Assembly (NCBI GenBank): GCA_030693065.1
Contig: JAUYBL010000010.1
Location: 124,001 to 188,000, forward strand
DNA from: Methylococcaceae bacterium
GTDB lineage: Bacteria; Pseudomonadota; Gammaproteobacteria; Methylococcales; Methylomonadaceae
Length of the DNA stretch: 64,000 nucleotides
Direction of reading: 5' to 3'
Part shown: piece after piece, positions 10,866 through 34,386 of the stretch
How positions within the stretch are numbered: the first letter of the stretch is position 1
Layout of the letters: the number at the start of each line of letters is the position of its first letter
The notes under the pieces: generated by a model
What the model was told of the DNA's origin: nothing
The model's input: the letters and a program-made list of their open reading frames with translations, nothing else
Databases searched by the model: none
Translations under genes and position numbers: made by a program

Positions 10866-11156
10866 AAAGACCTCACTCAAATAGAGGAAATAAAATCGCA
10901 TAGTACATTAGCAAATTCTAAAAAACTAACGTCTCGAATAATTTGCTAAGAATTCATGACTTAGCTCACAAAACCATCAAATAACAGATCCGTTTTTAAT
11001 AAATTAGCGAGCCTTACTGGCCTTCTGCTCAAACAACTCTGCCCTAATAGCTATTAGTCAACGGACAAAGTTACTTGCTTTGATTCTAATCAATAGGTTA
11101 AGCATGTATTATGTGAACAATGCTTCTGTTTTCACACTTCTGCACCTGAATATCGT

Positions 11157-18811: not shown

Positions 18812-20185
18812 TTATTGTTCAGCTGCTATTTTATAACGTTGCTTGGCAATTTCGCTCTCACGGGAGTGGCTCAGCATCGGAGCTGGATAATCACAAACAA
18901 CTTGTCTTTTATCCCATTGATGAATGTTTTTCGCTGAAACCTGGCTCAGCTCCGGCAACCAGCGAGCAATATATTGGCAATCGGGATCGAATTTTTCCTG
19001 CTGCCGCCAAGGATTGAAAATACGAAAATACGGCTGGGCATCGCACCCTGTGGATGCCGCCCACTGCCAATTGCCGTTGTTGACGCAAGGATCATAATCA
19101 ACCAGATGCTGGGCAAAATAACGCTCGCCCCAGCGCCAGTTGATATGCAAATCTTTCACTAAAAATGACGCCACAATCATCCGCACTCGATTGTGCATAA
19201 AACCGGTAGCATTTAACTCGCGCATGCCGGCATCGACAATAGGAAAACCGGTTTTTCCTTCGCACCAGGCTTGAAAATATTCCAGGTTATTATCCCATTG
19301 CACCCTTGCAAACTTTTCCACGAAAGCGTGGCCGAACACTTGCGGAAAGTGATAAGCAATATGGCTAAAAAAATCTCGCCAGTACAATTGCCGCTGCAAT
19401 GGATTCTCAGCGCCTAATTGCTGAGTGATGGCGTAATAGGCTTCTCTAACCGAACAGGTACCGAATTTTAAGTGTGCCGACAATTTGCTGGTGGCGTCCT
19501 GAGCAGGAAAGTCGCGGGTATTTATGTAATCCGTGCATTGCTCAATTGCAGCCAATATCGCCAATGCCTGCACTCGCCCGCCCGGCATGACTTCTGGATT
19601 CATCGTCAACGGCACGACCGCAAACGGATCCGTCAGTTCTGTTGTTACGTTAAGAAAATGTTGACTGACAAGTGGTGCCGGTAATGACACCGGAAAGCGC
19701 CGGGCATTGTTGTAAAACGCGGTAAATACTTTGTACGGCGTGTGATCATTTTTTACGGCTTGCTCAGGTTCGTTAAGCAACGCATCTGGAAGACAATGCA
19801 ACACAATACCTAGCTCATTACATAATTCTGCCAAGGCATAATCACGGCGGCGACTGAAGGGCGTGTAGTCTCTATTAATAAATACAGCCTGGATATGATG
19901 TTTTGCAACAAGCTCTCTGATGACTTGTTCCGGCGTTTGCTGGTAAAGCGCCAAGCTACCGCCAACTGTTTGTAATTGCTGCTGTAAATCGCTGATCGAC
20001 TGCAACATAAACTGCAAGGCCGGTTTACTTTGGTAAGGATGCGATTCTATTTGTGCGGGATCAAAAATAAAACACGGCAATACTTGCTCGGAGAGCCTTA
20101 ATGCTTCGTTGAGTGCAGTGTTGTCATAAAGACGCAAATCGCGACGAAAAATAAATACAGAAACAGCGTAGTGACTCATCGACAA
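18812..20185 (-). CDS. phrB: Deoxyribodipyrimidine photolyase
   Basis: Cryptochrome/photolyase family, 457 residues. The N-terminal antenna-binding alpha/beta domain starts FIFRRDLRLYDNTAL; the C-terminal FAD domain includes FPIVDAGMRELNATGFMHNR and WASTGCDAQPYFRIFNPWRQ. The enzyme uses blue or near-UV light to split cyclobutane pyrimidine dimers. Two in-frame starts exist, ATG 20185 and ATG 20179. It lies 12 bp downstream of the DUF1499 gene on the same strand, so the pair should share the divergent promoter region 20636-20799. It belongs to the surrounding light-response cluster. Confidence 0.94.
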   Translation of the reverse strand: MSMSHYAVSVFIFRRDLRLYDNTALNEALRLSEQVLPCFIFDPAQIESHPYQSKPALQFMLQSISDLQQQLQTVGGSLALYQQTPEQVIRELVAKHHIQAVFINRDYTPFSRRRDYALAELCNELGIVLHCLPDALLNEPEQAVKNDHTPYKVFTAFYNNARRFPVSLPAPLVSQHFLNVTTELTDPFAVVPLTMNPEVMPGGRVQALAILAAIEQCTDYINTRDFPAQDATSKLSAHLKFGTCSVREAYYAITQQLGAENPLQRQLYWRDFFSHIAYHFPQVFGHAFVEKFARVQWDNNLEYFQAWCEGKTGFPIVDAGMRELNATGFMHNRVRMIVASFLVKDLHINWRWGERYFAQHLVDYDPCVNNGNWQWAASTGCDAQPYFRIFNPWRQQEKFDPDCQYIARWLPELSQVSAKNIHQWDKRQVVCDYPAPMLSHSRESEIAKQRYKIAAEQ

Positions 20186-20799: not shown

Positions 20800-21735
20800 A
20801 TGAAAAAAATCCCCATTGGTATCAGCAGCTGTCTACTCGGCCATAATGTCCGTTTCGATGGCGGCCATAAACGCGATGCATATATTGCCGGTACGCTCAG
20901 CGAATATTTTGAATTTCACCCGTTCTGCCCGGAAGTGGAAATTGGCTTAGGTACGCCGCGGCCGACTATTCATTTAGTAAAGATTGCTAACGAAATACGC
21001 TGCGTGGGCGTTAAAAATCCTGAGTTGGATGTCACCGAACGCTTGCGCGATCATGCCGACCAGCAAAAACATCTGCATGCCCAGTTGTGTGGCTATATCT
21101 TCAAAAAAGATTCACCCAGTTGCGGCATGGAACGCGTCAAAGTTTATGGCGGTGCGCAACCGCATCGCGAAGGTGTAGGCATGTACGCAGAGGTAATGAT
21201 GCGCAACAACCCGTTAATACCTATAGAAGACGAAGGCCGCTTAGGCGACGCCGGCTTGCGCGAGAACTTTATCCAGCGGGTATACATCTATTACCGCTGG
21301 CAATGTTTATTGGCAGAAGGCATCAGCCCGCGCAAACTGACCGAGTTTCATGCCCGCCATAAGCTCATCATCATGAGCCATGCCGACTATGCGCCATTAG
21401 GACAATTATTAGCCGGTGTCACTCCAGGCAATGTGTCAGAAATTGCCGATATTTACATCGCGCGACTGATGAAACTACTAAAAAAAGTCGCCTCACGTAA
21501 AAATCATGTCAACGTGCTGCAACACATTCAAGGCTATCTGAAAAAGGAATTGACCGCCGATGACAAGGCTGAAATGAGTGAATTGATAGAACGTTATCGT
21601 GACGGTGAAGTACCGCTGATTGTGCCTTTAACTTTACTGAAACATCACTTCCGTAAAGCCCCTGATCCGTATATTGAACAATCGTTCTATATGTCGCCGT
21701 ATCCGCAGGAACTGCAACTGATCAATCAACTGTAA
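20800..21735 (+). CDS. DUF523-DUF1722 fusion protein (TudS/YbgA-like)
   Basis: A 311-residue protein with an N-terminal DUF523 domain (about 1-150) and a C-terminal DUF1722/YbgA domain (about 190-305, including KNHVNVLQHIQGYLKK). DUF523 has three conserved cysteines, Cys11 (SSCLLG), Cys43 (FCPEVEIGL) and Cys108 (DSPSCGM), expected to hold a [4Fe-4S] cluster; TudS members of this domain remove sulfur from thiouracil. DUF1722 is often found next to photolyase genes in gammaproteobacteria, as here. The gene is divergent from DUF1499-phrB and 3 bp ahead of the SDR gene. The exact function of the fusion is not settled. Confidence 0.85.
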   Translation: MKKIPIGISSCLLGHNVRFDGGHKRDAYIAGTLSEYFEFHPFCPEVEIGLGTPRPTIHLVKIANEIRCVGVKNPELDVTERLRDHADQQKHLHAQLCGYIFKKDSPSCGMERVKVYGGAQPHREGVGMYAEVMMRNNPLIPIEDEGRLGDAGLRENFIQRVYIYYRWQCLLAEGISPRKLTEFHARHKLIIMSHADYAPLGQLLAGVTPGNVSEIADIYIARLMKLLKKVASRKNHVNVLQHIQGYLKKELTADDKAEMSELIERYRDGEVPLIVPLTLLKHHFRKAPDPYIEQSFYMSPYPQELQLINQL

Positions 21736-21738
21736 GCC

Positions 21739-22602
21739 ATGGCGAATATACTCATTATCGGCTGCGGCGCAATTGGCTCAACGCTCGCCAACCTGCTGGC
21801 CGCACAAGGTCACCAAGTTACCGGCCTGAAACGAAAGCCACCGGCTCAACCCGGCATCATAAATTATGTTGCCGCCGACATTACGCAAGCTGCAGACCTT
21901 GAAAAATTATCCTCAGAATTTGATGTCGTGTTTTTTATCCTGTCGGCAGGTAGTCGTAATGAACAAAGCTACCGCGATATTTACGATACCGGCTTACATA
22001 ATTTGCTCCGTTACTTTGACAAGCAAAACAGCAAGCCACGTTGGGTTTTTGTGTCATCCACCAGCGTTTACGGCCAAAACAACGGTGAGTGGGTCGATGA
22101 AAGATCACTCGCCCAACCAACCAATGGCACCAGCCTATGGATCAGACAAGCCGAACAAATCCTACAGCAGCTAAGTCCTAGAAACATTATTGTGCGCTTT
22201 TCTGGGATTTATGGACCGGGCCGGGAATATTTATTAAGAACGGCACAACAAGCACCACTAATTCAACAATCTCCGCCTTATTACACTAACCGCATTCATC
22301 AAGATGACTGTGTGGGCGTATTGGCATTTTTACTGGAGCAGCATTTAGCAGGTGCAGTATTGCAATCATGCTACCTGGCCAGTGACGATGATCCCGCGCC
22401 GATGTGGGACGTTATTGCCTGGCTAGCTGCTGCTATGAACTGCCCGCCGCCGCAAGTAAAACAGGTGCCCGATAACGCGCCGATGAACAAACGCTGTAAC
22501 AATCAACGTTTGAAATCATTGGGCTATCAATTTAAATATTCCAGCTATCGAGAAGGCTATCTGCCGCTGATACTCAACCGCAATCAAGCAATTGACATTT
22601 AG
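21739..22602 (+). CDS. NAD(P)-dependent extended SDR, YeeZ-like
   Basis: A 287-residue Rossmann-fold protein of the NAD-dependent epimerase/dehydratase family. The nucleotide-binding loop is IIGCGAIGSTLANLLA near the N-terminus; VFVSSTSVYGQNNGEWVDE carries the Ser and Tyr of the SDR active-site region, and VRFSGIYGPGREYL follows. The classic YxxxK is not obvious (SLWIRQAEQIL takes its place), so the catalytic activity is uncertain. The gene begins 3 bp after the DUF523-DUF1722 gene. SDR genes accompany photolyase genes in known light-induced and singlet-oxygen regulons. Confidence 0.8.
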   Translation: MANILIIGCGAIGSTLANLLAAQGHQVTGLKRKPPAQPGIINYVAADITQAADLEKLSSEFDVVFFILSAGSRNEQSYRDIYDTGLHNLLRYFDKQNSKPRWVFVSSTSVYGQNNGEWVDERSLAQPTNGTSLWIRQAEQILQQLSPRNIIVRFSGIYGPGREYLLRTAQQAPLIQQSPPYYTNRIHQDDCVGVLAFLLEQHLAGAVLQSCYLASDDDPAPMWDVIAWLAAAMNCPPPQVKQVPDNAPMNKRCNNQRLKSLGYQFKYSSYREGYLPLILNRNQAIDI

Positions 22603-22723: not shown

Positions 22724-23209
22724 ATGCAAATCAAATTTCCATTTGATTCATCAAAACCGGTTGTCGGCGAAGCGAGTGTTGAGATTAATAAATCAATTAA
22801 TGATGTTTTCTCTTATGTCGGTGAAAATTTCTTTAATAACTACCCTAACTGGGCAGTAGAGGTTATTAAATTTCAACCCTTAGATGGAGACAAAGTTTTC
22901 ATCGGCGCAAAAGCAAAACAAGTTCGCAAAGAAAGCGGAACGGAAATTGAATCAATATTTGAAATTACTGATTATAAGCCGACGATAAGACTTTGTTTTC
23001 AAGGAGTAAACACCAACTATAAACATAGTTATTTATTAGAAACCGGCGAAAATAACCAACCCACCAAATTAACTTTTCGCTTTGAACTATCAGAACTTGA
23101 AATTTTTATGCGCCCGTTTGAAAAAATGATACGAATTGCCATTGAAGACGGCGCAGAAAATACCGTTGAAAACATTAAAAATCTAATTGAAGTGGAAACC
23201 ATTCACTAA
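22724..23209 (+). CDS. SRPBCC-fold protein
   Basis: A 161-residue soluble protein whose pattern fits the SRPBCC (START/polyketide cyclase-like) fold: an opening beta strand with VGEASVEINKSINDVFSYV, central strands ending with PTIRLCFQG, and a long C-terminal helix (MIRIAIEDGAENTVENIKNLIE). Such proteins bind hydrophobic ligands in a cavity. The ATG at 22724 follows a strong GGGAGGA site. It is the first of five closely spaced plus-strand genes running to msrQ. The ligand is unknown; being in an operon with a LOV sensor and a lipid hydroxylase suggests a lipid or pigment. Confidence 0.7.
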   Translation: MQIKFPFDSSKPVVGEASVEINKSINDVFSYVGENFFNNYPNWAVEVIKFQPLDGDKVFIGAKAKQVRKESGTEIESIFEITDYKPTIRLCFQGVNTNYKHSYLLETGENNQPTKLTFRFELSELEIFMRPFEKMIRIAIEDGAENTVENIKNLIEVETIH

Positions 23210-23254: not shown

Positions 23255-23713
23255 ATGGCTTTTTTTGTTGTAGATAAAGATAACGGTCTTATTCCCCAAG
23301 TTCTATCCGCCATCTTAGATGAATGTATTAACGGCATTACTTTATCAGACCCGGATTTAGAAGATTCACCCATTATTTATGCCAATAAATCATTCGAACG
23401 TTTAACTGGTTATAGCCAAGAAGAGATTATTGGCCGTAATTGCCGTTTTCTTCAAGGCGAAGATACCGAACAAGAGGCAAGGCATCAAATTGCCGAGGCT
23501 ATGAGTAAGCACGAAGCGGTTGAAGTTAATTTACGTAATTATAAAAAAGACGGTACTTTATTTTATAATCATTTAAAAATAGTACCTTTGTTCGACAGAA
23601 AGCAGCGTGTTCTTTACTACCTTGGCGTGCAGTACGATATAACTAAAGATATTAACGCTAAAAATGAGATAAAAACCTTAACTGAATTATTAAACGCAGT
23701 GCCAAAAAAGTAA
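23255..23713 (+). CDS. Short LOV photoreceptor (PAS/LOV domain protein)
   Basis: A 152-residue protein that is essentially a single LOV domain. The flavin-adduct motif GRNCRFLQG has the photoactive cysteine at Cys63, followed by NLRNYKKDGTLFYNHLKI, where two asparagines and the NYKKDG block contact the flavin ring, and GVQYDIT, which carries the conserved glutamine. A short C-terminal helix (about 130-150) is the only extension, as in the short LOV proteins of Pseudomonas putida. Such proteins sense blue light by a cysteinyl-FMN adduct and signal by dimer rearrangement; no output domain is fused. It lies 45 bp after the SRPBCC gene and 39 bp before the hydroxylase gene. Confidence 0.9.
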   Translation: MAFFVVDKDNGLIPQVLSAILDECINGITLSDPDLEDSPIIYANKSFERLTGYSQEEIIGRNCRFLQGEDTEQEARHQIAEAMSKHEAVEVNLRNYKKDGTLFYNHLKIVPLFDRKQRVLYYLGVQYDITKDINAKNEIKTLTELLNAVPKK

Positions 23714-23752: not shown

Positions 23753-24580
23753 ATGAATACAAATAATACTTCAAATAGTGGCGGCCTATTTTTTAATGAA
23801 GCCTTATTTGGTCTGGCTATTCTGGCTTTTATTTTGTTATTAGTTATTGAGAAAAAACATCCTTTCCGCCACTTTCCAGTCAAAATTTATAAAGATTCTT
23901 TTGTTACCAATACCACGGCCTTTTTAATTAATAATCTGATATTGACGGTACTTCGGGCCTCTTCATTATTTTTAGTCGCACAACAATTTGCATCTTATGG
24001 TTTATTAGGTGGCTTAGAAAACGGCCCTATAAAATGGCTACTTGCTTTCGCTTTGTTTGATTTGGCCATTTATGCTTGGCACGTTGCCAGCCATAAATAC
24101 GAGTGGCTGTGGCGCTTCCATAAAGTGCATCACAGCGACAAAGGCTTTAACGTCTCTACTGGCTTTCGCTTTCACGTTTTCGACCTATTGTTAGAAATAA
24201 TTTATAAGTGTGCGTTTGTTGTCGTCATTGGCGTCAATGCGTATTTAGTTCTTTCTATTGAAATAGTCGAACTGTTTTTTATAATGTTTCATCATGCCAA
24301 CATTCGCGTGCCTAATGAAGATATTATTTCAAAATTTTTTATAACTCCATCATTACACCGAACGCATCATTCAACCGCACGTAATGAACATGACAGTAAC
24401 TATGGCATTGTCTTATCGATATGGGATCAAATGTTCGGCACACGAAAAGAATTGATTCCTCAACATATTGGCCTGGATTTGATTGAGGCTGAAAATTATA
24501 TTCAGCTTTTTTCATTAGCTTTTATCACCGAAAGAAAAATAAAAGCTTTATTTGGTTGGATTCCGAAAGGAAAGAAATAG
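23753..24580 (+). CDS. Fatty-acid hydroxylase/sterol desaturase family membrane protein
   Basis: A 275-residue integral membrane di-iron oxygenase. Histidine clusters typical of the family are seen: WHVASH, RFHKVHH, MFHHANIRVP and LHRTHHS. About four transmembrane segments precede and separate them (18-36, 60-80, 95-115, 145-175). Members hydroxylate or desaturate lipids, sterols or carotenoids. The substrate here is unknown; operon context with LOV and MsrPQ suggests a membrane lipid change under light stress. Gaps are 39 bp upstream and 31 bp downstream. Confidence 0.88.
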   Translation: MNTNNTSNSGGLFFNEALFGLAILAFILLLVIEKKHPFRHFPVKIYKDSFVTNTTAFLINNLILTVLRASSLFLVAQQFASYGLLGGLENGPIKWLLAFALFDLAIYAWHVASHKYEWLWRFHKVHHSDKGFNVSTGFRFHVFDLLLEIIYKCAFVVVIGVNAYLVLSIEIVELFFIMFHHANIRVPNEDIISKFFITPSLHRTHHSTARNEHDSNYGIVLSIWDQMFGTRKELIPQHIGLDLIEAENYIQLFSLAFITERKIKALFGWIPKGKK

Positions 24581-24611: not shown

Positions 24612-25568
24612 ATGATTATTAAAACTACAAAAGAGTTAGTTGCTAGTGAAATAACTGATATTTCGGTATTTAAACGGCGGCGGCAAATTATTAAAGCTGC
24701 ATTAGCAGCGATGGTTGCAGGTGAGTTTATTGCGCCAGCAATAGCCGCTAACAACAACTCGAATTGGGCGAATTTACCTAAGAGTAATTATGCGGATAAG
24801 TCATTAACACCGACACCTGCTGGGCTTATTAAAAATTATACTAACTATTATGAGTTTGCATTTAATAAACAAGACTCAACAGATTTAGCAAAAAATCTTC
24901 GCACCGATGCTTGGTCTGTAGAAATAACTGGCGAAGTGGAAAAACCAGGACATTATTATCTTGAGGACATTTTAAGTCAGCAGTCTCTTCAGGAATATAT
25001 CTACCGTTTTCGTTGTGTCGAAGCTTGGTCAATGGTTGTACCGTGGATTGGTTTTCCATTAGCCGACTTATTAAAGTCAGTACAGCCTTTGTCAACCGCC
25101 AGATTTGTAAAATTTACCTCTGTTTATCAACCTGACACTATGCCAAAACAAGCCAGTAACCAAATGCTGGAATGGCCGTATGTTGAAGGTTTACGTATTG
25201 ATGAAGCGATGCATCCTTTAACAATATTGGCCGTCGGGTTATATGGGGATATTCTGCCAAATCAAAATGGTGCGCCATTACGTTTGATTGTGCCCTGGAA
25301 GTACGGCTTTAAAAGTATTAAAGCCATTGTAAAAATTGAACTTTTAAAAAGGCCGCCGATTACCAGCTGGAATAGTTTTGCACCTAATGAATATGGCTTT
25401 TACGCAAATGTAAATCCCGACGTCGCTCATCCACGTTGGAGTCAAAACAGCGAACGTCAATTAGGTAGCACTTTTTTTACGCCACGTAGGCAAACAGAAT
25501 TATTTAATGGCTATGGCGAGCAAGTAGCGTCACTTTATAGTGAAATGAATTTAAGGCATTTTTTCTAA
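24612..25568 (+). CDS. msrP: Protein-methionine-sulfoxide reductase catalytic subunit MsrP
   Basis: Periplasmic molybdoenzyme (YedY family), 318 residues. The N-terminal twin-arginine signal is KRRRQIIKAALAAMVAG, cleaved near APAIAANN. The molybdenum-coordinating cysteine is Cys135 in FRCVEAWSMVVPW. The C-terminal block LIVPWKYGFKSIKAIVKIEL is typical. MsrP repairs oxidised methionine in periplasmic proteins using electrons from MsrQ. Its stop overlaps the msrQ start. It is the fourth gene of the LOV operon. Confidence 0.95.
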   Translation: MIIKTTKELVASEITDISVFKRRRQIIKAALAAMVAGEFIAPAIAANNNSNWANLPKSNYADKSLTPTPAGLIKNYTNYYEFAFNKQDSTDLAKNLRTDAWSVEITGEVEKPGHYYLEDILSQQSLQEYIYRFRCVEAWSMVVPWIGFPLADLLKSVQPLSTARFVKFTSVYQPDTMPKQASNQMLEWPYVEGLRIDEAMHPLTILAVGLYGDILPNQNGAPLRLIVPWKYGFKSIKAIVKIELLKRPPITSWNSFAPNEYGFYANVNPDVAHPRWSQNSERQLGSTFFTPRRQTELFNGYGEQVASLYSEMNLRHFF

Positions 25569-26188
25569 TGACTTATTTAATCAGCAGATTATGGACACTA
25601 TCAATTGTCGGATGTTTAATTCCATTTCTGTGGTTAATTGTTGATATTACTTTTGATAATTTAGGATCAAATCCGATCCAAGAATTACATATCCGCTTAG
25701 GTGATTGGTCATTGCGTTTTTTATGGATAACGCTGGCCATTACACCAATTCAAACCATTACCAAATGGCGCGGCATGACAGATTATCGGCAATTATTTGG
25801 CTTGTGCGCATTCTTTTATGCAACGCTACATGTGCTGGGTTATTTAGTTGTTGACCATTACTTTCAATGGCGAATTATTGGTATAGATATACTGGAAAGT
25901 TCTTATATTTGGTTTGGCATAATTGCTTATTTTATAACGTTGTTATTAGCTCTTTCATCGCCAAAATGGGCCAAAAAGCGTTTGGGCAAAACCTGGAAAA
26001 AATTGCATCGTTTTATTTATATTGCCGCTTGTGCAGCGATTATGCATTATTTCTGGCAACTGAAAGGCAATCTGGCCGACCCGTTATTTTATCTATTAGT
26101 CATTTTTATATTATTGGGTTTCCGAGGTTTAGTTTGGTTAAAGGATCGCCAATTAGCCCAACTAATGCTCCCCAAAAGTACCAAGTAA
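25568..26188 (+). CDS. msrQ: MsrQ, haem-binding membrane subunit of MsrPQ
   Basis: A 206-residue ferric-reductase-like membrane protein (YedZ) with about six transmembrane segments. Candidate haem-b histidines include those in ATLHVLGY, KLHRFIY and MHYFWQ. It passes electrons from the quinone pool or flavin reductases to MsrP. The ATG overlaps the msrP stop codon (TAATG), so the two are translationally coupled. It ends the five-gene run and converges with the BLUF gene 6 bp away. Confidence 0.94.
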   Translation: MTYLISRLWTLSIVGCLIPFLWLIVDITFDNLGSNPIQELHIRLGDWSLRFLWITLAITPIQTITKWRGMTDYRQLFGLCAFFYATLHVLGYLVVDHYFQWRIIGIDILESSYIWFGIIAYFITLLLALSSPKWAKKRLGKTWKKLHRFIYIAACAAIMHYFWQLKGNLADPLFYLLVIFILLGFRGLVWLKDRQLAQLMLPKSTK

Positions 26189-26194
26189 TACTCC

Positions 26195-27067
26195 CTATTC
26201 CTTATTTTGAATTAGCCAATAAGTAACACCCAATGCCACCAGCACCAATGCGGAGGCGCTTACATATTCAGACGACAAACTTTTGTAGTCAAATACGATG
26301 ACTTTTCGAGAAATAGCCATCAGTGCCGTTGCCACTACCAGCTTAACTGGGATGACATCGCTTCTTATATATAACGTGATATTCAAAAATATTTCGATGG
26401 CAATTAACACCGCAAGAAAGGCCCCAAAAGTTTCCAGCATGTCGTTAATGCTCAATAACAACATTGGTGGCTCGACTATTTTTTGGTACATGACATAAAC
26501 CACGTCGACAATGCCAAACAGAATGACGACAACCATTAACAACGCTAAAAACTTCACGCCAATGCGAATAGTTCGATGCAATAACTGTATGAAGGGATCT
26601 TCATGCTGCATCGGCAATTCTTCGTGGCTTACTGACGGCCCCACTTGACTAATCAATTTTGCTCGCAAATGGGACAACAATGGTGCGATTACATATTTAT
26701 GAGCCGCTAAGCCTGAAGGCGTAAAGTCCTGGGCAAAAAAATCGTTAAAGCCAGGTATCGCCGTTAATTGATTGCTATCAACACTTTCAAATCCCATGCT
26801 CCAATAAGGAAAAGCGCGCTCAACGATGGGTTGTTTTTCAATAATGGTGACATCGGTATGGCGCGGGTCTTTTTCAATTAAGGCATACATGCTGTTGACA
26901 CTGGCTTCATCGCCTTCCAGTACCTGTAAAAAAGTGTTGTTCGAAAACAATAAAATTCCGGTAATGTTCTTGGCACTATTGTGCGCCCGACATTCTTTTA
27001 ATAGTTTTAACAGGTCTTCGGTGCCCCATGCACTCAACGCGGTACTGGCATAAATTAATCTGATCAT
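26195..27067 (-). CDS. BLUF blue-light sensor fused to a PsiE-like membrane domain
   Basis: A 290-residue protein. Residues 1-95 are a BLUF domain with every key residue at the spacing known from AppA: Tyr6, Asn30, Gln48 (FLQVLEG), Trp89 and Met91 (YWSMGF). After a linker (96-160), residues 165-287 hold four hydrophobic segments (171-192, 210-232, 240-258, 268-286) with the PsiE-family signature MAISRKVIVFD. BLUF binds FAD and senses blue light through a Tyr-Gln hydrogen-bond switch. PsiE is a phosphate-starvation-inducible membrane protein of unknown action. The fusion implies a light-gated membrane output. The gene is divergent from the MerR/B12 regulator across 156 bp. Confidence 0.88.
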   Translation of the reverse strand: MIRLIYASTALSAWGTEDLLKLLKECRAHNSAKNITGILLFSNNTFLQVLEGDEASVNSMYALIEKDPRHTDVTIIEKQPIVERAFPYWSMGFESVDSNQLTAIPGFNDFFAQDFTPSGLAAHKYVIAPLLSHLRAKLISQVGPSVSHEELPMQHEDPFIQLLHRTIRIGVKFLALLMVVVILFGIVDVVYVMYQKIVEPPMLLLSINDMLETFGAFLAVLIAIEIFLNITLYIRSDVIPVKLVVATALMAISRKVIVFDYKSLSSEYVSASALVLVALGVTYWLIQNKE

Positions 27068-27160
27068 GGCCGCCTTCCTCGAAATTTTTATTATTGTTAT
27101 GTTGCCCAGTCGAACCTATCACAAAAACCAAGTGGTCATATTAAGTTTTTTGCACATATA

Positions 27161-27192
27161 TTGTCTAAGTTTTGTAAAGGTTCTGATACAAT
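27161..27192 (+). promoter_or_regulatory. Candidate promoter/operator of the MerR-B12 regulator gene
   Basis: A -35-like TTGTCT (27161-27166) and -10-like TACAAT (27187-27192) are separated by 20 bp, the over-long spacing often seen at MerR-family promoters. An inverted repeat TTGTA (27172-27176) and TACAA (27187-27191) lies in the spacer and -10. This may be an autoregulatory site in the gap shared with the divergent BLUF gene. Confidence 0.35.
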
Positions 27193-27223: not shown

Positions 27224-28210
27224 ATGTCCACTCAAAAGGATAATTCTGCACAATACCTTATCAGCACGGTAACCAAGCGCTCTGGCGTTAAGTCCGATTT
27301 GGTCAGAGCCTGGGAAAGACGATACCAAGCAGTCAGTCCAACCCGCACTGCAGGCGGACATCGTGTTTATACCGATTTGGATATTGCTCGATTAAAATTA
27401 TTGAATGAGGCCACCAGCAGTGGTCACAGCATTGGTCAAATCGCCAATTTATCATTGGATGATTTGAAAAAACTATTGCAACATGAGTCTTCAGCCCCGG
27501 TTTCGGCTTATAGATCAAGCACTCCACCCGCTGCGGTCACTAGCGAACGACGTTTTCTTGCCGAAGATTACATAGAAAAATGCTATGCCGCAGTGCTGGC
27601 TTTTGACGCACATGCCTTGGAATCACATTTTGAAAATGCCATCGTCGAACTCGGGCCGCAACTATTTATTGAAAACCTGTTAACCCCTCTATTAACTCAG
27701 ATTGGTGAACGCTGGCGAGACGGCGAGTTAAGACCCGTCCATGAACACATGGCCTCGTCTATTATTCGTTCGTTAACCTACATTTTGCGCAATAACACGC
27801 CTTGCGCAGCAAATGCCCCAAGAATGATTGTGACCACGCCAATTGGTCAGCTCCATGAACTTGGCGCCTTGCTGGCAGCAATCATTGCCGAGTTTAAAAA
27901 CTGGAAAGTGACTTATCTGGGTGCTAATTTGCCTTCTGAGGAAATAGCGGCTGCAGTGAAGTACACCCAAGCCAATGCCGTTACCTTGAGCATTAGTTTT
28001 AGCGCTGATGATTTGGTGGTACCTCGAGAATTGCGCAAACTGAGAAAACTGATCGGCAATGACAAAGCATTGATAGTTGGCGGCAGATCGGCCGGGCATT
28101 ATCAAGCCGTACTGGATGAAGTCGGTGTACTAAAAATTCAAAACTATGATCATTTCAGATTACTGCTTGATGAACTCGCAGCCAAGCATTATGCAGAGCA
28201 GTCAACGTAA
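27224..28210 (+). CDS. MerR-family regulator with B12-binding domain (CarH/LitR-like)
   Basis: A 328-residue protein: MerR winged HTH (about 10-85; AWERRYQAVSPTRTAGGHR), a four-helix cap (about 113-190) and a Rossmann B12-binding domain (about 198-320). The CarH adenosyl-capping motif W-x9-EH is intact: Trp164, Glu174, His175. His211 in GQLHELG matches the lower cobalt ligand. CarH/LitR proteins bind adenosylcobalamin, hold their DNA as tetramers in the dark and let go on illumination. The residue after the tryptophan is Arg165, where Thermus CarH has the histidine that caps cobalt after light exposure, so the photoproduct may differ. The cob operon starts 48 bp downstream on the same strand. 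Confidence 0.88.
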   Translation: MSTQKDNSAQYLISTVTKRSGVKSDLVRAWERRYQAVSPTRTAGGHRVYTDLDIARLKLLNEATSSGHSIGQIANLSLDDLKKLLQHESSAPVSAYRSSTPPAAVTSERRFLAEDYIEKCYAAVLAFDAHALESHFENAIVELGPQLFIENLLTPLLTQIGERWRDGELRPVHEHMASSIIRSLTYILRNNTPCAANAPRMIVTTPIGQLHELGALLAAIIAEFKNWKVTYLGANLPSEEIAAAVKYTQANAVTLSISFSADDLVVPRELRKLRKLIGNDKALIVGGRSAGHYQAVLDEVGVLKIQNYDHFRLLLDELAAKHYAEQST

Positions 28211-28258: not shown

Positions 28259-29005
28259 ATGCCCCACCCCAAACTCTTTTTAGTAGCGTTAAGTTTTTAT
28301 ACCCGCTTGCCGATGCCGCCAACACTGAATCATCGACGCCTACCCGAAGCCATTTTATATTTACCGCTAGTCGGTTGGCTGGTTGGCAGCATTTCTGCAT
28401 TTGGTTTTTATCTAGCCCTGTCGCTTTGGCCTTTATCGACAGCAATACTCCTGACATTGCTTGTTGGCATTATGATCACCGGCGCTTTACATGAAGATGG
28501 CTTTGCCGATGTCTGCGATGGCTTTGGCGGTGGCTGGGGCAAGCAACGTATTCTTGAAATCATGAAAGACTCACACATTGGCGTTTACGGTGTACTGGGC
28601 TTACTGTTACTGATACTGTTAAAATTCACCACCCTCAGCAGCCTACCAGCCGTTGCAATCCCGCTAATATTGATTGCCGGACACAGCATCAGCCGACTCA
28701 TGCCATTACTGTTGATGCATAAGCTGGACTATGCCCGTAATGATCAAAGCAAATCTGCCGCAGCTATTTACCGACCTAATCGCCAACAATTAGCCGTTGC
28801 CGGATGCACCGCATTACTACCGCTATTGCTGTTGCCACCGTTATGCATACTGGCGATTATTCCGGTACTGCTCAGCACTGTATTTCTGGGCAAATATTTT
28901 TTCCGTCATATCGGCGGCTATACCGGCGACTGCCTGGGCGCAAGCCAGCAAGTCGCCGAAGTGTTTTTTTATTTAAGCGTGAGTGCCTTATGGAAATTTA
29001 TTTAA
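28259..29005 (+). CDS. cobS: Adenosylcobinamide-GDP ribazoletransferase
   Basis: Polytopic membrane enzyme of 248 residues that joins adenosylcobinamide-GDP to alpha-ribazole (phosphate), the last assembly step of cobalamin. Family motifs are SFYTRLPMP near the N-terminus and GALHEDGFADVCDGFGGG with the metal-binding acidic residues, then KDSHIGVYG. About six hydrophobic segments follow. It is the first gene of the cob run, 48 bp after the B12-dependent regulator, with no riboswitch-sized leader between them. Its 3' end overlaps cobC by 16 bp. Confidence 0.93.
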   Translation: MPHPKLFLVALSFYTRLPMPPTLNHRRLPEAILYLPLVGWLVGSISAFGFYLALSLWPLSTAILLTLLVGIMITGALHEDGFADVCDGFGGGWGKQRILEIMKDSHIGVYGVLGLLLLILLKFTTLSSLPAVAIPLILIAGHSISRLMPLLLMHKLDYARNDQSKSAAAIYRPNRQQLAVAGCTALLPLLLLPPLCILAIIPVLLSTVFLGKYFFRHIGGYTGDCLGASQQVAEVFFYLSVSALWKFI

Positions 29006-29553
29006 TTCGCCACACCCATACCGCTAATGATCCAGGGGTCTGCTATGGACAAAGCGATGTGGCGCTGGCGGACAGTTTTGAAACAGAACTGGCTGTTATT
29101 CACAACAAATTACCGGAATTTAACGACGATTGCTTAGTGTTTAGCAGTCCGCTGAGTCGTTGTTTGACCTTGGCTGAAACATTTTCAGACGATGTAACCA
29201 CCGATGCGCGCCTGCAAGAACTGAACTTCGGCGACTGGGAAGGCCAACGCTTTGATGACTTGCCCGCTGATGTCTTGCAACATTGGACTGATAACTATGT
29301 CACCGCTGCCCCGCCCAACGGCGAAACCTTTGAAGATTTATATCAACGTAGCGGCGATTTTTGGCAAGAGCTATTGGCAACCAAAGCGGAACAAGCATTA
29401 GTCGTCACCCATGCCGGCGTTATCCGGGCATTACTGGCCCGGGCATTGAATCTGCCCTTAGCCAATTCATTTCAGCTACGTATTGACTCGGGTTCCGTAA
29501 ATAAACTGCGGCACACTGATGATTATCTTTATGTTGAATACATCAACCTGTAA
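28990..29553 (+). CDS. cobC: Alpha-ribazole phosphatase
   Basis: Histidine-phosphatase family protein of 187 residues. The catalytic RHG-type motif is LIRHTHT at the N-terminus, and the second histidine lies in LVVTHAGVIRALL. It removes phosphate from alpha-ribazole phosphate or the cobalamin phosphate. The frame is open upstream inside cobS, but MEIYLIRHTHTAND at 28990 is the family start. It overlaps cobS by 16 bp and its stop overlaps the cobD start (TAATG), indicating translational coupling. Confidence 0.9.
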   Translation: MEIYLIRHTHTANDPGVCYGQSDVALADSFETELAVIHNKLPEFNDDCLVFSSPLSRCLTLAETFSDDVTTDARLQELNFGDWEGQRFDDLPADVLQHWTDNYVTAAPPNGETFEDLYQRSGDFWQELLATKAEQALVVTHAGVIRALLARALNLPLANSFQLRIDSGSVNKLRHTDDYLYVEYINL

Positions 29554-30620
29554 TGCACGGCGGCAACATTTATCAGTTTGCAGCACAACTGGGCTGCCTG
29601 CCGGAACAGGTGCTGGATTTTTCCGCTAACATCAACCCCGAGCAGGCGGCCGACTTAAGCTGCCTGCAACAAGTACAGCTAACCCCGTATGCTGAGCCTC
29701 AATATCACCTGCTAAAACAAGCCTTTAAAAACCGTTATCCCTTACCGGCAGCCGCGGATATTGAGCCTTTTAACGGCGCCAGCGCGGCCATTTTCGGCTT
29801 ATTGCGGCATTTAAAGCCTAAGGATTTGGTGCTGTACACCCCGCTCTACGGAGAATACCGGCATAGCGCAGAACAACTGGGCTGCAAGCTACATACTGTT
29901 AACCGGCTGATCGACATCAACGCCGATATTCCGCCAAACAGCACGGTCATTTTTGTGAATCCATCCACACCGGATGGCCAGCTGTATGATCTAAAAGCCT
30001 TAATGAAAGCTTGGCAAGCAGCCAACTGCACCATCATCATTGACGAGTCTTTTCTGGATTTTTGCGATGCCGAATCAATAACCCAGCTAATCGGTACTAT
30101 CGATAAGCTTTATGTCGTTAAGTCGTTAAGCAAGTTTTACGGCTGTGCCGGTATTCGAATCGGTTTTATTGTTGCGGCTGCCCAAGCTATTGCCGATCTG
30201 CAACTCGGTGAACCGGCCTGGAAATGCTCCAGCCTGGATATGGCTTACATGCAGCAAGCGCTGGCAAATACCGACTTTATAGAACGCACCCGGCAGCAAA
30301 CTGATTATCTAAGAAACTTGCTCAACATAGCCTTGCAAGAGTCCGGTCTGTTTGAGACCATCTACCCTAGCCAGGCCAATTTTTTGCTGGCGCGCTTGGC
30401 TCAAGGCATGGATGGTTACCAATTGCAGCAACATCTGGCGACTGACCGAATCCTAATTCGGGTGTGTGAAAATTTCGACGGGCTAGACAACTACCATGTC
30501 CGCTTTGCGGTCAAAAATGAGCCGTCCATCAAACATCTGGCGCTCAACTTAAATACATTAAGCCCTCAGTTGGTGGGAGCGACGCCTACGTCGCGACTAA
30601 AAACTCAAATCGCGACGTAG
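29553..30620 (+). CDS. cobD: L-threonine-O-3-phosphate decarboxylase CobD
   Basis: Fold type I PLP enzyme, 355 residues. It begins MHGGNIYQFA, a CobD hallmark, and Lys194 in VKSLSKFYGCAGIRIG binds PLP. It makes aminopropanol phosphate for the cobalamin side chain. Other naming systems call it CobC. The last 15 or so residues (from about 340: VGATPTSRLKTQIAT) are encoded by a palindromic repeat whose right arm supplies the stop codon, so the natural C-terminus was probably shorter or different. CbiB, its partner, is two genes downstream. Confidence 0.92.
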   Translation: MHGGNIYQFAAQLGCLPEQVLDFSANINPEQAADLSCLQQVQLTPYAEPQYHLLKQAFKNRYPLPAAADIEPFNGASAAIFGLLRHLKPKDLVLYTPLYGEYRHSAEQLGCKLHTVNRLIDINADIPPNSTVIFVNPSTPDGQLYDLKALMKAWQAANCTIIIDESFLDFCDAESITQLIGTIDKLYVVKSLSKFYGCAGIRIGFIVAAAQAIADLQLGEPAWKCSSLDMAYMQQALANTDFIERTRQQTDYLRNLLNIALQESGLFETIYPSQANFLLARLAQGMDGYQLQQHLATDRILIRVCENFDGLDNYHVRFAVKNEPSIKHLALNLNTLSPQLVGATPTSRLKTQIAT

Positions 30621-30634
30621 GCGTCGCTCCCACC
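30572..30634. repeat. 25-bp palindromic repeat overrunning the end of cobD
   Basis: A perfect 25-bp inverted repeat occupies 30572-30596 and 30610-30634 with a 13-nt loop. The arm begins GGTGGGAGCGACGCCTACG, similar to the GTGGGAGCG-type REP sequences of gammaproteobacteria. The left arm is read as coding sequence and the right arm contains the cobD stop codon at 30618-30620. Confidence 0.9.
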
Positions 30635-30672
30635 CGTTTGCTTGCTGTGCATAACTCTATAAACATCAACTC

Positions 30673-32073
30673 ATGAAGTCTCTAGCCATTTTCGGCACCA
30701 GCTCAGACGCCGGCAAAACCACGCTCGTAATGGCTTTATGCCGTATTTTTGCCGACCGCGGCATCAACGTCGCGCCCTTTAAGGCACAAAACGTTTCCAA
30801 CAATTCCGCGGTGACCATTGAAGGTCGTGAGATTTCTCGCGCTCAATGCCTGCAGGCAGAAGCGGCGCGGGTCGAGCCTAGCTACCTGTTTAATCCGGTG
30901 CTGCTCAAATCGCACGGCAACAGTTCGGTGCAAGTAATCGTCAATGGACTGGTCACTGACAATCAGTCAGTAGTCGAGTATTACCAGAAAATCGACGGCC
31001 TAAAAGAACACGTCAAATACGCCTTTAACCAGCTCCAGCAAGACTACGATTTGGTCATTGCCGAAGGCGCAGGCTCGCCGGTTGAGCTGAATTTATTACA
31101 TAAAGACTTGTCTAACACCTTCGTTGCCAACACCTTTAATACGAAAAACATTTTGGTCGCGGACATTGAACGCGGCGGCGTGTTTGCCTCCATTTACGGC
31201 ACCTTGGAACTGATGGACCCGGTCATGCGCAGCAATTTAATCGGCGTTATCGTCAACAAGTTTCGCGGCGACCGGCGTTTTTTTGACGAAGGCGAAACCA
31301 TCATCCGCGAGCGCTTTGGCGTGCCGGTGTTAGGCGTGTTGCCGTTTCAGCCGATGAATATCGACATGGAAGACTCGCAATCGTTAAGTAATTACCGGCA
31401 GCGTCTTGATGACGTCAAACTGCGCATTGCCGTAATTGCTTATCCGGGCTTGAGTAATTACAACGATCTGGATGCGCTGATGGCCGACCCAGAATTGCAT
31501 ATTGAAATGATTCACGCATATAGGCCATTGACTGACTTTGACATGGTGCTGTTGCCCGGCAGTAAAACCGTGATTCGGGATTTGCACTGGTTAAAACATC
31601 AAGGCTTATTTAACGAACTGCAACACTTTGATAAACCCATCTTCGGCATCTGCGGTGGCTATCAAATGCTGTGCGGGCAGCTGCATGATCCCAATGCGCT
31701 TGAACATGACCATGCCATTGTTGAAGCAGGCTTAGGGTTTATTCCAGACGATGTGCATTATCAGCAACCCAAAATCCTAGCGCGCGGCGACTACCAACTG
31801 TTTTCTCATGACGCCATCAAAGGCTATGAAATTCATTGCGGTCGCATGGCTAAATACCCACTTTATTACCAAGATGGCCTCTACAGTGGTACCCATGTCC
31901 ATGGCGTCTTTGATGATGACGGCTTGCGCACCAATTACTTCAAGACCATCAACCCAAATTACCAAGGTTATGCCTACGCATCCTACCGAGAAGAGCAAAT
32001 TCAGGGCTTTGCCGACATGGTGGCAGACAATCTCGATCTATCAGCCATCTTAGAAGCGCTACAGGCCGACTGA
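30673..32073 (+). CDS. cobQ: Cobyric acid synthase
   Basis: Glutamine amidotransferase of 466 residues (CbiP type). The N-terminal ATPase domain starts FGTSSDAGKTTLVMALC, with KAQNVSNNSAVT next. The C-terminal class I-like amidotransferase domain has LLPGSKTVIRDL and the nucleophile cysteine in GICGGYQMLCGQL. It amidates four carboxyl side chains of adenosyl-cobyrinic acid a,c-diamide. It starts 52 bp after cobD, across the palindromic repeat, and abuts cbiB with an overlap. Confidence 0.95.
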   Translation: MKSLAIFGTSSDAGKTTLVMALCRIFADRGINVAPFKAQNVSNNSAVTIEGREISRAQCLQAEAARVEPSYLFNPVLLKSHGNSSVQVIVNGLVTDNQSVVEYYQKIDGLKEHVKYAFNQLQQDYDLVIAEGAGSPVELNLLHKDLSNTFVANTFNTKNILVADIERGGVFASIYGTLELMDPVMRSNLIGVIVNKFRGDRRFFDEGETIIRERFGVPVLGVLPFQPMNIDMEDSQSLSNYRQRLDDVKLRIAVIAYPGLSNYNDLDALMADPELHIEMIHAYRPLTDFDMVLLPGSKTVIRDLHWLKHQGLFNELQHFDKPIFGICGGYQMLCGQLHDPNALEHDHAIVEAGLGFIPDDVHYQQPKILARGDYQLFSHDAIKGYEIHCGRMAKYPLYYQDGLYSGTHVHGVFDDDGLRTNYFKTINPNYQGYAYASYREEQIQGFADMVADNLDLSAILEALQAD

Positions 32074-32969
32074 TGTTTTTTGAATTAGCCCTATTGGCCT
32101 ACCTGTTCGATAAACTATTCGGCGAACTGCCCGGAAAACACCCGATCATGTGGATGGGCGATTTTATTGCCGGATTTGAACGGCGTTTTTATCGCAACCG
32201 GCTGTTACCCGGCGCGCTATTGGTGATCAGCCTGTTGCTGGTGACCTTTCTTATCAGTATCGGTTTGGTGGCATTGACTGACTCCCTGCCCGGCTGGCTG
32301 GCGTTGCCCATCCAAGCAATACTGGCGTCCACCGGTCTGGCGATGAACATGCTCCATACCAGCGTTGCAGGATTACTCACCACAGACCAGCCCAGGCAGG
32401 CAATACGTTATTTGGTCAGCCGCGACACCGAAACCATGACCAATACTGAAATTTACAAAGCCGGACTGGAAACCTGGGCAGAAAACTTAAGCGACGGCGT
32501 TATTGCGCCGCTGTTTTATTTGCTACTGTTCGGCCTGCCCGGCATTGCCGTGTACAAAGCCATCAACACCATGGATTCGATGATTGCCTACAAAACCGAA
32601 CGCTATTTTTACTTCGGCAAAACCGCCGCTATCATCGATGACATCGCCAATTTTATCCCGGCGCGCCTGACCGCTTTATTGATCGTGTGCCTGGCAAAAA
32701 ATAAACGCCACGCCTGGCAATGCTGCCTGAGTGACGGCAATAAACTGGAAAGCCCCAATGCCGGTTACCCAATTGCGGCGATGGCGGGCGGCTTAAGTAT
32801 CGCATTGGGTGGCGACGCCAGTTACCACGGCCAAATAAAACATAAACCATCGTTGGGCGTTTCGATCAACCCGCTCGACAAAAGCACGCTTGAACAAGGG
32901 TTACACATGCGCACCAGCATCGACCGAACCGTATTAACTTTGTTGCTAACAGGCGCATTACTGACATGA
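32073..32969 (+). CDS. cbiB: Adenosylcobinamide-phosphate synthase CbiB
   Basis: Polytopic membrane protein of 298 residues. Family motifs are FDKLFGELPGKHPIMWMG at the N-terminus, RYLVSRDTETMTNTEIYKAG, ETWAENLSDGVIAPLFY and INTMDSMIAYK. It attaches aminopropanol (phosphate), made from CobD product, to cobyric acid. Start overlaps the cobQ stop and the end overlaps cobU by 4 bp, so the operon is tightly coupled. Synonym cobD in the Pseudomonas denitrificans naming. Confidence 0.94.
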   Translation: MFFELALLAYLFDKLFGELPGKHPIMWMGDFIAGFERRFYRNRLLPGALLVISLLLVTFLISIGLVALTDSLPGWLALPIQAILASTGLAMNMLHTSVAGLLTTDQPRQAIRYLVSRDTETMTNTEIYKAGLETWAENLSDGVIAPLFYLLLFGLPGIAVYKAINTMDSMIAYKTERYFYFGKTAAIIDDIANFIPARLTALLIVCLAKNKRHAWQCCLSDGNKLESPNAGYPIAAMAGGLSIALGGDASYHGQIKHKPSLGVSINPLDKSTLEQGLHMRTSIDRTVLTLLLTGALLT

Positions 32970-33463
32970 AAACCCTATTCATCGGCGGCATCAAAAGCGG
33001 TAAATCGCGCCTCGCGGAAAGCCATATCCTTGCCATTGCAGGTAACACCAAGCCTTATTATTTAGCCACGACCGAGTTTTTTGATGACGAAATGCAAGCT
33101 CGCATTCAAGTTCATAAGCAACAACGCCAAGATGCCTTCATTACTATTGAAGAGCCGCTTAAACTATTTAGCGCCGTGCAATCCTGCCCCGGCCCGGTGC
33201 TGATCGAATGCATCTCCATGTGGCTCAACAACCAGCTGTATCACCAAATCCCCGAAGTCGACACACTACAAGAATTGGCTGCCGTATTAAAACTGCCCAA
33301 TGATTTGGTGCTGGTACACAACGAAGTCGGTCTTGGTATCATCCCCGACAACCCACTGGCTCGCCAGTTTGTCGACCTATCCGGCCGTGCCGCACAGCTA
33401 ATGGCCCAGCATTGCGACCACGTATTTTTTTGCAGTGCGGGCCTGAAGTTGCAGATGAAATAA
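32966..33463 (+). CDS. cobU: Adenosylcobinamide kinase/guanylyltransferase
   Basis: A 165-residue P-loop enzyme with Walker A GGIKSGKSRLAE at the N-terminus. Later motifs are LIECISMWLNN and VLVHNEVGLGIIPDNPLARQF, both typical of CobU/CobP. It phosphorylates adenosylcobinamide and activates it with GMP for CobS. The ATG overlaps the cbiB stop (ATGA). It closes the cob operon. The partner cobT, which makes alpha-ribazole phosphate, is not in the window. Confidence 0.94.
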   Translation: MKTLFIGGIKSGKSRLAESHILAIAGNTKPYYLATTEFFDDEMQARIQVHKQQRQDAFITIEEPLKLFSAVQSCPGPVLIECISMWLNNQLYHQIPEVDTLQELAAVLKLPNDLVLVHNEVGLGIIPDNPLARQFVDLSGRAAQLMAQHCDHVFFCSAGLKLQMK

Positions 33464-33552
33464 GTCTTCGAATATTTTTACTAAAAACCGTACTTATTAC
33501 ATTGAGATTACTATAATGGCCTGCTAATCCGTTGCCACGAAAGGACTTTTCT

Positions 33553-34386
33553 ATGTCAGATAAAAATAACGATACCAAAGAACAGAATGCCGACAAGGTA
33601 CAAATCTGGGTAAAAAAAGATGCACTGGAATATGAAGAAGAACTGCGCAGGCTACAGGTCGAGCTATTAAAGTTTCAAAACCATGTCAAAGAACAAGGCC
33701 TACGCGTGTTAATGCTGTTTGAAGGCCGCGATGCCGCGGGCAAAGGCGGTACTATCAAGCGCATTACCGAACATTTAAATCCGCGTGGCGCGAAAGTCGT
33801 GGCGCTGGAGAAGCCGTCTAATACCGAAAGAACTCAGTGGTATTTTCAACGCTACGTCAATTACCTGCCATCAGCTGGCGAAATGGTGCTATTTGATCGC
33901 TCTTGGTATAACCGAGCAGGTGTTGAACCGGTGATGGGTTTTTGCAGCGAGGTAGAGCACAAGGAGTTTTTACGCGAGACGCCGGAATTTGAAAAAATGC
34001 TGGTGAATTCCGGGATTATTTTTATCAAATTCTACTTTTCAGTCAGTAAAAAAGAACAGGCTCGACGCTTTAATGGCCGCATTAACGATCCGTTAAAGCA
34101 GTACAAAATTTCACCCGTTGATATGGAAGCGCAAAAGCTATGGGACAAATACACTATCGCTAAGTATTCCATGCTGCTTTCCACTCACATGCCTTATGCG
34201 GAGTGGACGGTAATTAAATCCGACAATAAAAAGAAGGCGAGAATAAACTGCATCAAATATATTTTATCGCACGTGGATTACCCGGATAAAATTGCCGATG
34301 ACCAGTTACAAATAGATCAATCCATTCTGTTAAACGGCTCGAATGAGCTAAAAAGAATGGAATTGAACATGAATAAGGCTTTATAA
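33553..34386 (+). CDS. ppk2: Polyphosphate kinase 2
   Basis: PPK2-family kinase of 277 residues from the ATG at 33553, which has a GAAAGGAC ribosome-binding site; an upstream in-frame alternative at 33532 lacks one. Walker A is FEGRDAAGKGGTIKR, Walker B is MVLFDRSWYNRAGVEPVMGF, and the lid module with basic residues follows the FYFSVSKKEQARRF block. Single-domain members phosphorylate nucleoside mono- or diphosphates with polyphosphate. A -10-like TATAAT lies at 33512-33517, so it has its own promoter apart from the cob operon. Confidence 0.93.
   Translation: MSDKNNDTKEQNADKVQIWVKKDALEYEEELRRLQVELLKFQNHVKEQGLRVLMLFEGRDAAGKGGTIKRITEHLNPRGAKVVALEKPSNTERTQWYFQRYVNYLPSAGEMVLFDRSWYNRAGVEPVMGFCSEVEHKEFLRETPEFEKMLVNSGIIFIKFYFSVSKKEQARRFNGRINDPLKQYKISPVDMEAQKLWDKYTIAKYSMLLSTHMPYAEWTVIKSDNKKKARINCIKYILSHVDYPDKIADDQLQIDQSILLNGSNELKRMELNMNKAL

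Follow-up and report, generated by a model that had tools for sequence, protein, structure and literature searches.

In BLUF proteins, blue light switches the flavin pocket, and AppA of Rhodobacter senses redox as well as light. PsiE is a named family for which we know of no established function; the psiE gene of Escherichia coli is controlled by PhoB, and the family was found in 95 of 398 sampled Pseudomonadota genomes. In the E. coli stress island tLST, a PsiE homologue, orf14, adjoins kefB within a module for oxidative stress (PMC8290217); when it was deleted, neither chlorine resistance nor lipid oxidation changed (PMC8407380). Light responses at the gene level are described for Pseudomonas, where LitR and photolyase clusters are light-induced and a short LOV protein inactivates or releases LitR (PMC9758184). 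Light-responsive B12 domains carry a signature made up of GxxW, EH, GxxH and GxxxP (PMC11796333), and CarH binds tandem 11-bp repeats of the form nnnnTnnACAn, imperfect repeats included (PMC9304148).

The DNA analysed here, a 64,000-nucleotide stretch from a Methylococcaceae bacterium (the window), encodes a protein in which a BLUF domain and a PsiE domain are joined. The gene occupies an open reading frame at 26195-27067 on the minus strand, starts with ATG, carries a Shine-Dalgarno-like AGGAAGG (27073-27079) directly 5′ of the start and specifies 290 amino acids; besides the reading frame, it is recognised by two Pfam matches and by conservation across loci and genomes. BLUF covers residues 1-92 (26792-27067; PF04940, E 1.3e-30, complete profile 1-92 of 92) and PsiE covers residues 171-289 (26201-26557; PF06146, E 1.1e-34, profile 3-120 of 122). 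The PsiE match scores 119.7 bits against a gathering cut-off of 23.9, the BLUF match is likewise far over its own cut-off, and the Pfam search returned no third significant domain. In the host genome this is the sole PsiE and one of two BLUF proteins. The dN/dS values, 0.04-0.23 in the BLUF part and 0.02-0.10 in the PsiE part (ten pairs, some with saturated dS), indicate that both domains are under purifying selection; together with the retention of the fusion across many genera, they argue against a chance joining.

The BLUF half retains the residues of the photocycle. A profile built from 36 relatives was compared with BLUF structures in the PDB, and on AppA (2iyg) query positions 3-93 fall on chain positions 18-108 with a constant offset of 15 and no net shift. 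Because of this constant offset, Tyr6, Asn30, Gln48, Trp89 and Met91 can be equated with AppA Tyr21, Asn45, Gln63, Trp104 and Met106. Asn30, Gln48 and Met91 are invariant in all 41 aligned BLUF domains (40 BLUF-PsiE fusions and one short BLUF) and Tyr6 is present in 40 of them, the remaining one having Phe, so that the complete Tyr-Gln-Met set occurs in 40 of 41. The BLUF part of the AlphaFold2 model, with pLDDT mostly above 90, matches the fold of BLUF structures at E 2.4e-11.

Between the two domains lies a linker (residues 93-170, 26558-26791), delimited by conservation and the AlphaFold2 model, which consists of the C-terminal BLUF helices (110-142) and a hinge with the motif HEELP (residues 148-152, nt 26612-26626). 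The model of the whole protein (mean pLDDT 86.7, pTM 0.60) comprises the BLUF fold and helices at 158-198, 207-236, 241-258 and 266-288; a flexible hinge at 149-157 precedes these PsiE helices, with low pLDDT at 149-151. HEELP is invariant among the 36 close relatives and is present too in many stand-alone PsiE proteins of the same subfamily. With four membrane segments by hydropathy, the PsiE half is a predicted four-helix membrane domain, in which E225, N229, Y233, R254, K255, D260 and Y283 hardly vary, whether the PsiE domain is fused or stands alone. Its predicted fold had no match in the PDB (best E 2.5), and neither did its sequence. These results uphold the structural part of the original prediction, which had proposed a fusion of BLUF to PsiE: both profiles lie far above their gathering cut-offs, and the C-terminal half, in which a missing PsiE match would have spoken against the proposal, matches at the E value given above. 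The prediction had placed PsiE at residues 165-287, within a few residues of the profile match; its four-helix membrane domain agrees with the hydropathy segments and the modelled helices, and its reading of the five pocket residues at AppA spacing agrees with the profile alignment. Elsewhere, a plasmid of Azonexus hydrophilus (L131:5031-7344) carries a stand-alone PsiE gene flanked by nhaR and by the gene of a mechanosensitive ion channel, neighbours that hint at a role for PsiE in ion or osmotic stress.

The most informative evidence on function is the surrounding cluster of light genes. Judged from its gene content, the BLUF-PsiE gene sits in a light and photo-oxidative-stress cluster, which includes a DNA photolyase on the minus strand (18812-20185; PF03441 2.5e-80, PF00875 1.3e-41). 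A DUF1499 gene is listed between the photolyase and a 2-thiouracil desulfurase (DUF523)-DUF1722 protein (20800-21735; PF04463 8.9e-38, PF08349 1.1e-38), which is encoded on the plus strand, as are an NAD-dependent epimerase family protein (21739-22602; PF01370 7.8e-16) and an SRPBCC/Polyketide_cyc2 family protein (22724-23209; PF10604 3.9e-9). There follow, on the same strand, a short LOV protein (23255-23713), recognised by PAS/LOV matches and a motif in its sequence and matching the YtvA family at 2.7e-48, below that family's cut-off, and a fatty acid hydroxylase family membrane protein (23753-24580; PF04116 1.5e-26). After these come msrP, for the periplasmic methionine sulfoxide reductase (24612-25568; NCBIfam MsrP 2.7e-132), and msrQ, for the haem subunit of MsrPQ (25568-26188; NCBIfam MsrQ 1e-44), also on the plus strand, so that msrQ converges on the BLUF-PsiE gene. 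Farther off in the window, a minus-strand gene at 8652-10901 encodes a protein of 749 amino acids with a signal-like N-terminal segment, Ig-like repeats and repeated CxxCH haem motifs, resembling multihaem cytochromes.

On its other side, BLUF-PsiE has as divergent neighbour a LitR/CarH-type MerR-B12 regulator (27224-28210, plus strand) with MerR, B12-binding_2 and B12-binding domains. This protein matches NCBIfam CarH at 7.8e-35, below the equivalog cut-off, and from its sequence GERW, EH, GQLH and GANLP can be read, the full AdoCbl light-response signature; a search of the host genome gave no second match to such a regulator. Directly after the LitR gene come cobalamin synthesis genes (28259-33463), of which cobS was confirmed by profile and cobC-, cobD- and cobQ-like genes and further ones were recognised by eye, an arrangement that would fit a link between the sensor and the supply of its chromophore. 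LitR adjoins BLUF-PsiE in only about eight of 59 loci; in the window and at L003 and L036 the two genes diverge from one promoter region. In the intergenic region of the window lies a putative CarH/LitR operator, TTTACAaaactTAGACAatataTGTGCA (27151-27178, minus strand), composed of two 11-bp direct repeats with TnnACA and one pseudorepeat with TnnGCA. It is the single match in 64 kb, with none in 100 shuffles, under an 11-bp repeat model that was adopted from the CarH study (PMC9304148), i.e., chosen after the sequence was seen. The element is conserved in L003/L077, and its two full repeats are found in L036, another locus at which BLUF-PsiE and LitR diverge. The two-repeat pattern appears in four of 55 BLUF-PsiE upstream regions, those of L004 and L030 being unrelated in sequence or position; the putative operator is confined to the nearest relatives. 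Across the genome the pattern was matched four times, with three of these matches overlapping within a single repeat array, and was no commoner than its reversed control. We therefore propose no genome-wide LitR regulon from it, and the operator is a prediction for the BLUF-PsiE/LitR promoter only. The Pseudomonas LitR motif T(G/A)TACA was also considered and discarded, with no occurrence in the intergenic regions of the cluster and a count in the window below expectation. The same genome contains, between toxin-antitoxin-like genes, five tandem 11-bp repeats of the form TATACAnnTGT (L125:1501-1550), which look CarH-like and may be of unrelated origin. By analogy with the Pseudomonas clusters, the BLUF-PsiE gene would probably be light-induced via LitR in this genome.

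The association with light genes extends beyond the window. When its ten light-cluster genes were used as queries, with one fixed set of thresholds and a search within 6 kb, at least one homologue was found at 29 of 59 BLUF-PsiE loci, as against three of 25 loci with PsiE alone and none of 21 with a short BLUF, the comparison loci being drawn mainly from the same order. The corresponding Fisher p values, 0.0013 against PsiE alone and 1.3e-5 against short BLUF, are too small, since related loci are not independent. The commonest neighbour is DUF523-DUF1722, near 16 of the 59 loci. The association persists at 38-55% identity and recurs in another family, where loci L067 and L068 have photolyase, DUF523, lipocalin and MerR genes. 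Three further categories, added after looking, are lipocalin genes (12 fusion loci), Fe-SOD (eight Methylobacter loci) and a SodC-like gene recognised by eye (four Nitrotoga-type loci). The other 30 loci have none of the light genes of the window within 6 kb, and they include several divergent fusion clades (L053, L056-L060, L062-L064). The three exceptions among the PsiE-alone loci (L098-L100, family f2) place a stand-alone PsiE amid photolyase, lipocalin, MerR regulator, DUF523, TIGR01777-like oxidoreductase and further lipid-related genes, which indicates that PsiE itself, with or without BLUF, is a member of the light cluster. This f2 cluster adjoins genes resembling those of the Pseudomonas ufaM cluster.

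The fusion is shared by several groups of bacteria. One scan of species genomes yielded 37 loci, of which 35 carry the fusion (L003-L037, where L032 is cut at a contig end and the end of L030 is altered) and two carry PsiE alone (L038-L039). The loci come from Methylobacter, Methylovulum, Crenothrix, other Methylococcales and Candidatus Nitrotoga; L017, labelled just Betaproteobacteria, has neighbouring genes in common with the Nitrotoga loci. Within the Methylococcales, 53 two-domain matches occur in 51 of 311 genomes and 19 genera, and in class- and phylum-level samples the fusion was confined to that order and one other proteobacterial family (f212). The plasmid collection held one fusion, from the purple sulfur bacterium Candidatus Thiodictyon syntrophicum, annotated only as a "phosphate-starvation-inducible PsiE family protein". 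Counted in this way, as had been proposed from the single sequence, the architecture is not an isolated one. Two BLUF-PsiE genes lie at L016 (1019-1885 and 4733-5599), with epimerase and DUF523 genes between them, and likewise on one contig of genome G112; a homologue at L061:6546-7388 (genome G295) has one in-frame TGA and may be a broken gene or a sequencing error. In the tree of PsiE domains, fusions require three state changes on the best topology, and a single fusion clade, i.e., one origin, is not rejected (p-AU 0.32). The Nitrotoga sequences (L022, L028, L031) nest in the Methylococcales clade beside Crenothrix and a Methylococcaceae genome, and this position inside a methanotroph clade suggests horizontal transfer of BLUF-PsiE between methanotrophs and the nitrite-oxidising Nitrotoga. 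In the open-access literature we found no paper linking BLUF with PsiE and nothing relevant on the PsiE family and light or on BLUF in methanotrophs. The sequences are already in databases under the PsiE name, and the fusion architecture is apparently undescribed, in line with the original claim that a PsiE membrane output is unusual for BLUF.

In the reading we prefer, BLUF-PsiE would be a blue-light receptor that is anchored in the membrane and serves the photo-oxidative stress response, with BLUF switching a PsiE membrane effector, an account to which we give about an even chance of being correct. In the dark, LitR with AdoB12 would occupy the operator between the two genes, and illumination would release it and induce BLUF-PsiE. 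The N-terminal BLUF domain, on the cytoplasmic side, would bind flavin; blue light would switch its Tyr6-Gln48 hydrogen-bond network, and the signal would run along the C-terminal BLUF helices, cross the HEELP hinge and reach the PsiE helices. The four-helix PsiE domain, situated in the inner membrane, would then serve as the effector and protect or adjust the membrane, or its ion balance, under light stress. The proposed action of PsiE is the weakest step of this scheme, and the lack of a measured effect of the tLST orf14 deletion (PMC8407380) counts against a part for PsiE in photo-oxidative defence. On a wider reading, which we regard as tentative, these proteins would form a family of one-component, light-gated membrane effectors that passed horizontally between methanotrophs and nitrite oxidisers and gave an immediate membrane response to blue light, in addition to the slower responses that LitR and LOV proteins bring about at the level of genes.

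Other explanations place the output elsewhere. The protein could act as a membrane-tethered anti-repressor, with the lit BLUF domain binding LitR at the membrane, thereby freeing the light genes, and PsiE being mainly an anchor. Such an arrangement has precedents in E. coli BluF, which directly antagonises the MerR-like BluR (PMC3509220), and in the short LOV protein that antagonises class II LitR (PMC9758184), and it would suit the window, L003 and L036, in all of which the two genes diverge from a common promoter region. However, LitR is adjacent in so few of the 59 loci, and the LitR of the window has its own B12 light signature, which would make a second sensor superfluous; a short LOV protein is present too. 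Conservation of the PsiE half moreover equals or exceeds that of the BLUF half and extends to charged residues of the membrane helices that a mere anchor would not need, and we therefore consider this explanation unlikely. Somewhat less likely again is light-gated transport or ion flow, transport having been one suggestion of the original prediction; here PsiE would be a small channel or carrier gated by BLUF, for example in ion or pH balance during photo-oxidative stress. The conserved charged and polar residues of the membrane helices (E225, N229, R254, K255, D260) would fit such a function, as would the position of PsiE beside kefB in the tLST module (PMC8290217) and, in Azonexus, its two flanking genes, nhaR and that of a mechanosensitive channel; the predicted fold, however, is unlike any known transporter or channel (the best PDB match being the one at E 2.5), and no substrate-specific gene recurs beside BLUF-PsiE.

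A different doubt concerns the stimulus. Replacement of the key BLUF Tyr by Phe is a change known to abolish the photocycle, and among the close relatives two Methylobacter loci (L027:6001-6867 and L029:6001-6867) have Phe in place of Tyr6, with the BLUF part still under purifying selection. The BLUF domain might thus sense redox state or flavin supply, for which the dual sensing of AppA offers a precedent, or might have lost photoactivity; with the Tyr-Gln-Met set complete in all but one of the sampled BLUF domains, and photolyase and LOV genes recurrent nearby, this explanation, suggested only by these two loci, appears improbable. The least probable explanation, to which we attach very little weight, retains the phosphate-starvation link of the original prediction, with PsiE acting in that response and BLUF adding light control. 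It draws on the family name, on the PhoB control of E. coli psiE and on a polyphosphate kinase 2-like ORF, recognised by eye, at 33532-34386 (plus strand), 6.5 kb from the fusion and about 5 kb downstream of LitR. A motif scan found no PHO box near the BLUF-PsiE gene and a count across the window equal to chance, no phosphate genes recur among the neighbours, and the open-access literature held no relevant paper on BLUF and phosphate starvation. The predicted link is therefore unsupported, as the gene lacks a PHO box and its neighbours are light and oxidative-stress genes; PsiE takes its name from the regulation of the E. coli gene and not from any function of the protein.

The chief value of BLUF-PsiE is that it makes PsiE testable with light, since fusion to a light sensor means that PsiE activity could be switched on and off and measured. 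A BLUF protein with an integral membrane output would also interest optogenetics, and the fusion suggests that methanotrophs and the nitrite-oxidising Nitrotoga are under real pressure from light stress.

Among known systems, E. coli BluF (YcgF)/BluR (YcgE) resembles this locus in its N-terminal BLUF domain, its effector in a second domain and the proximity of a MerR-type repressor gene (PMC3509220). BluF nevertheless has a degenerate EAL domain and no PsiE, and BluR is of the MlrA kind, whereas the MerR protein of the window is of the B12-binding LitR/CarH kind. The BLUF fold and photocycle residues are common to BLUF-PsiE, Rhodobacter AppA, Synechocystis PixD (Slr1694) and BlsA; the output of AppA, however, is haem-binding and Cys-rich, PixD and BlsA are short, and a PsiE membrane domain is absent from all three. 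E. coli PsiE and tLST orf14 are PsiE family membrane proteins like the fusion, and orf14 belongs to an oxidative-stress module (PMC8290217), yet both are stand-alone proteins with no light domain, and the PhoB control of E. coli psiE was not found here. The Pseudomonas class II LitR/short LOV cluster (pmlR, phrB, ufaM) has, like the window, a LitR-type regulator, a short LOV protein and a photolyase (PMC9758184); no BLUF-PsiE is reported from it, and its class II LitR lacks the full B12 light signature that the LitR of the window possesses. The stand-alone PsiE of family f2 (L098-L100) has no BLUF domain, but it shares with BLUF-PsiE a related PsiE domain (52-54% identity), here with an HDELP motif, and a place in a light cluster.
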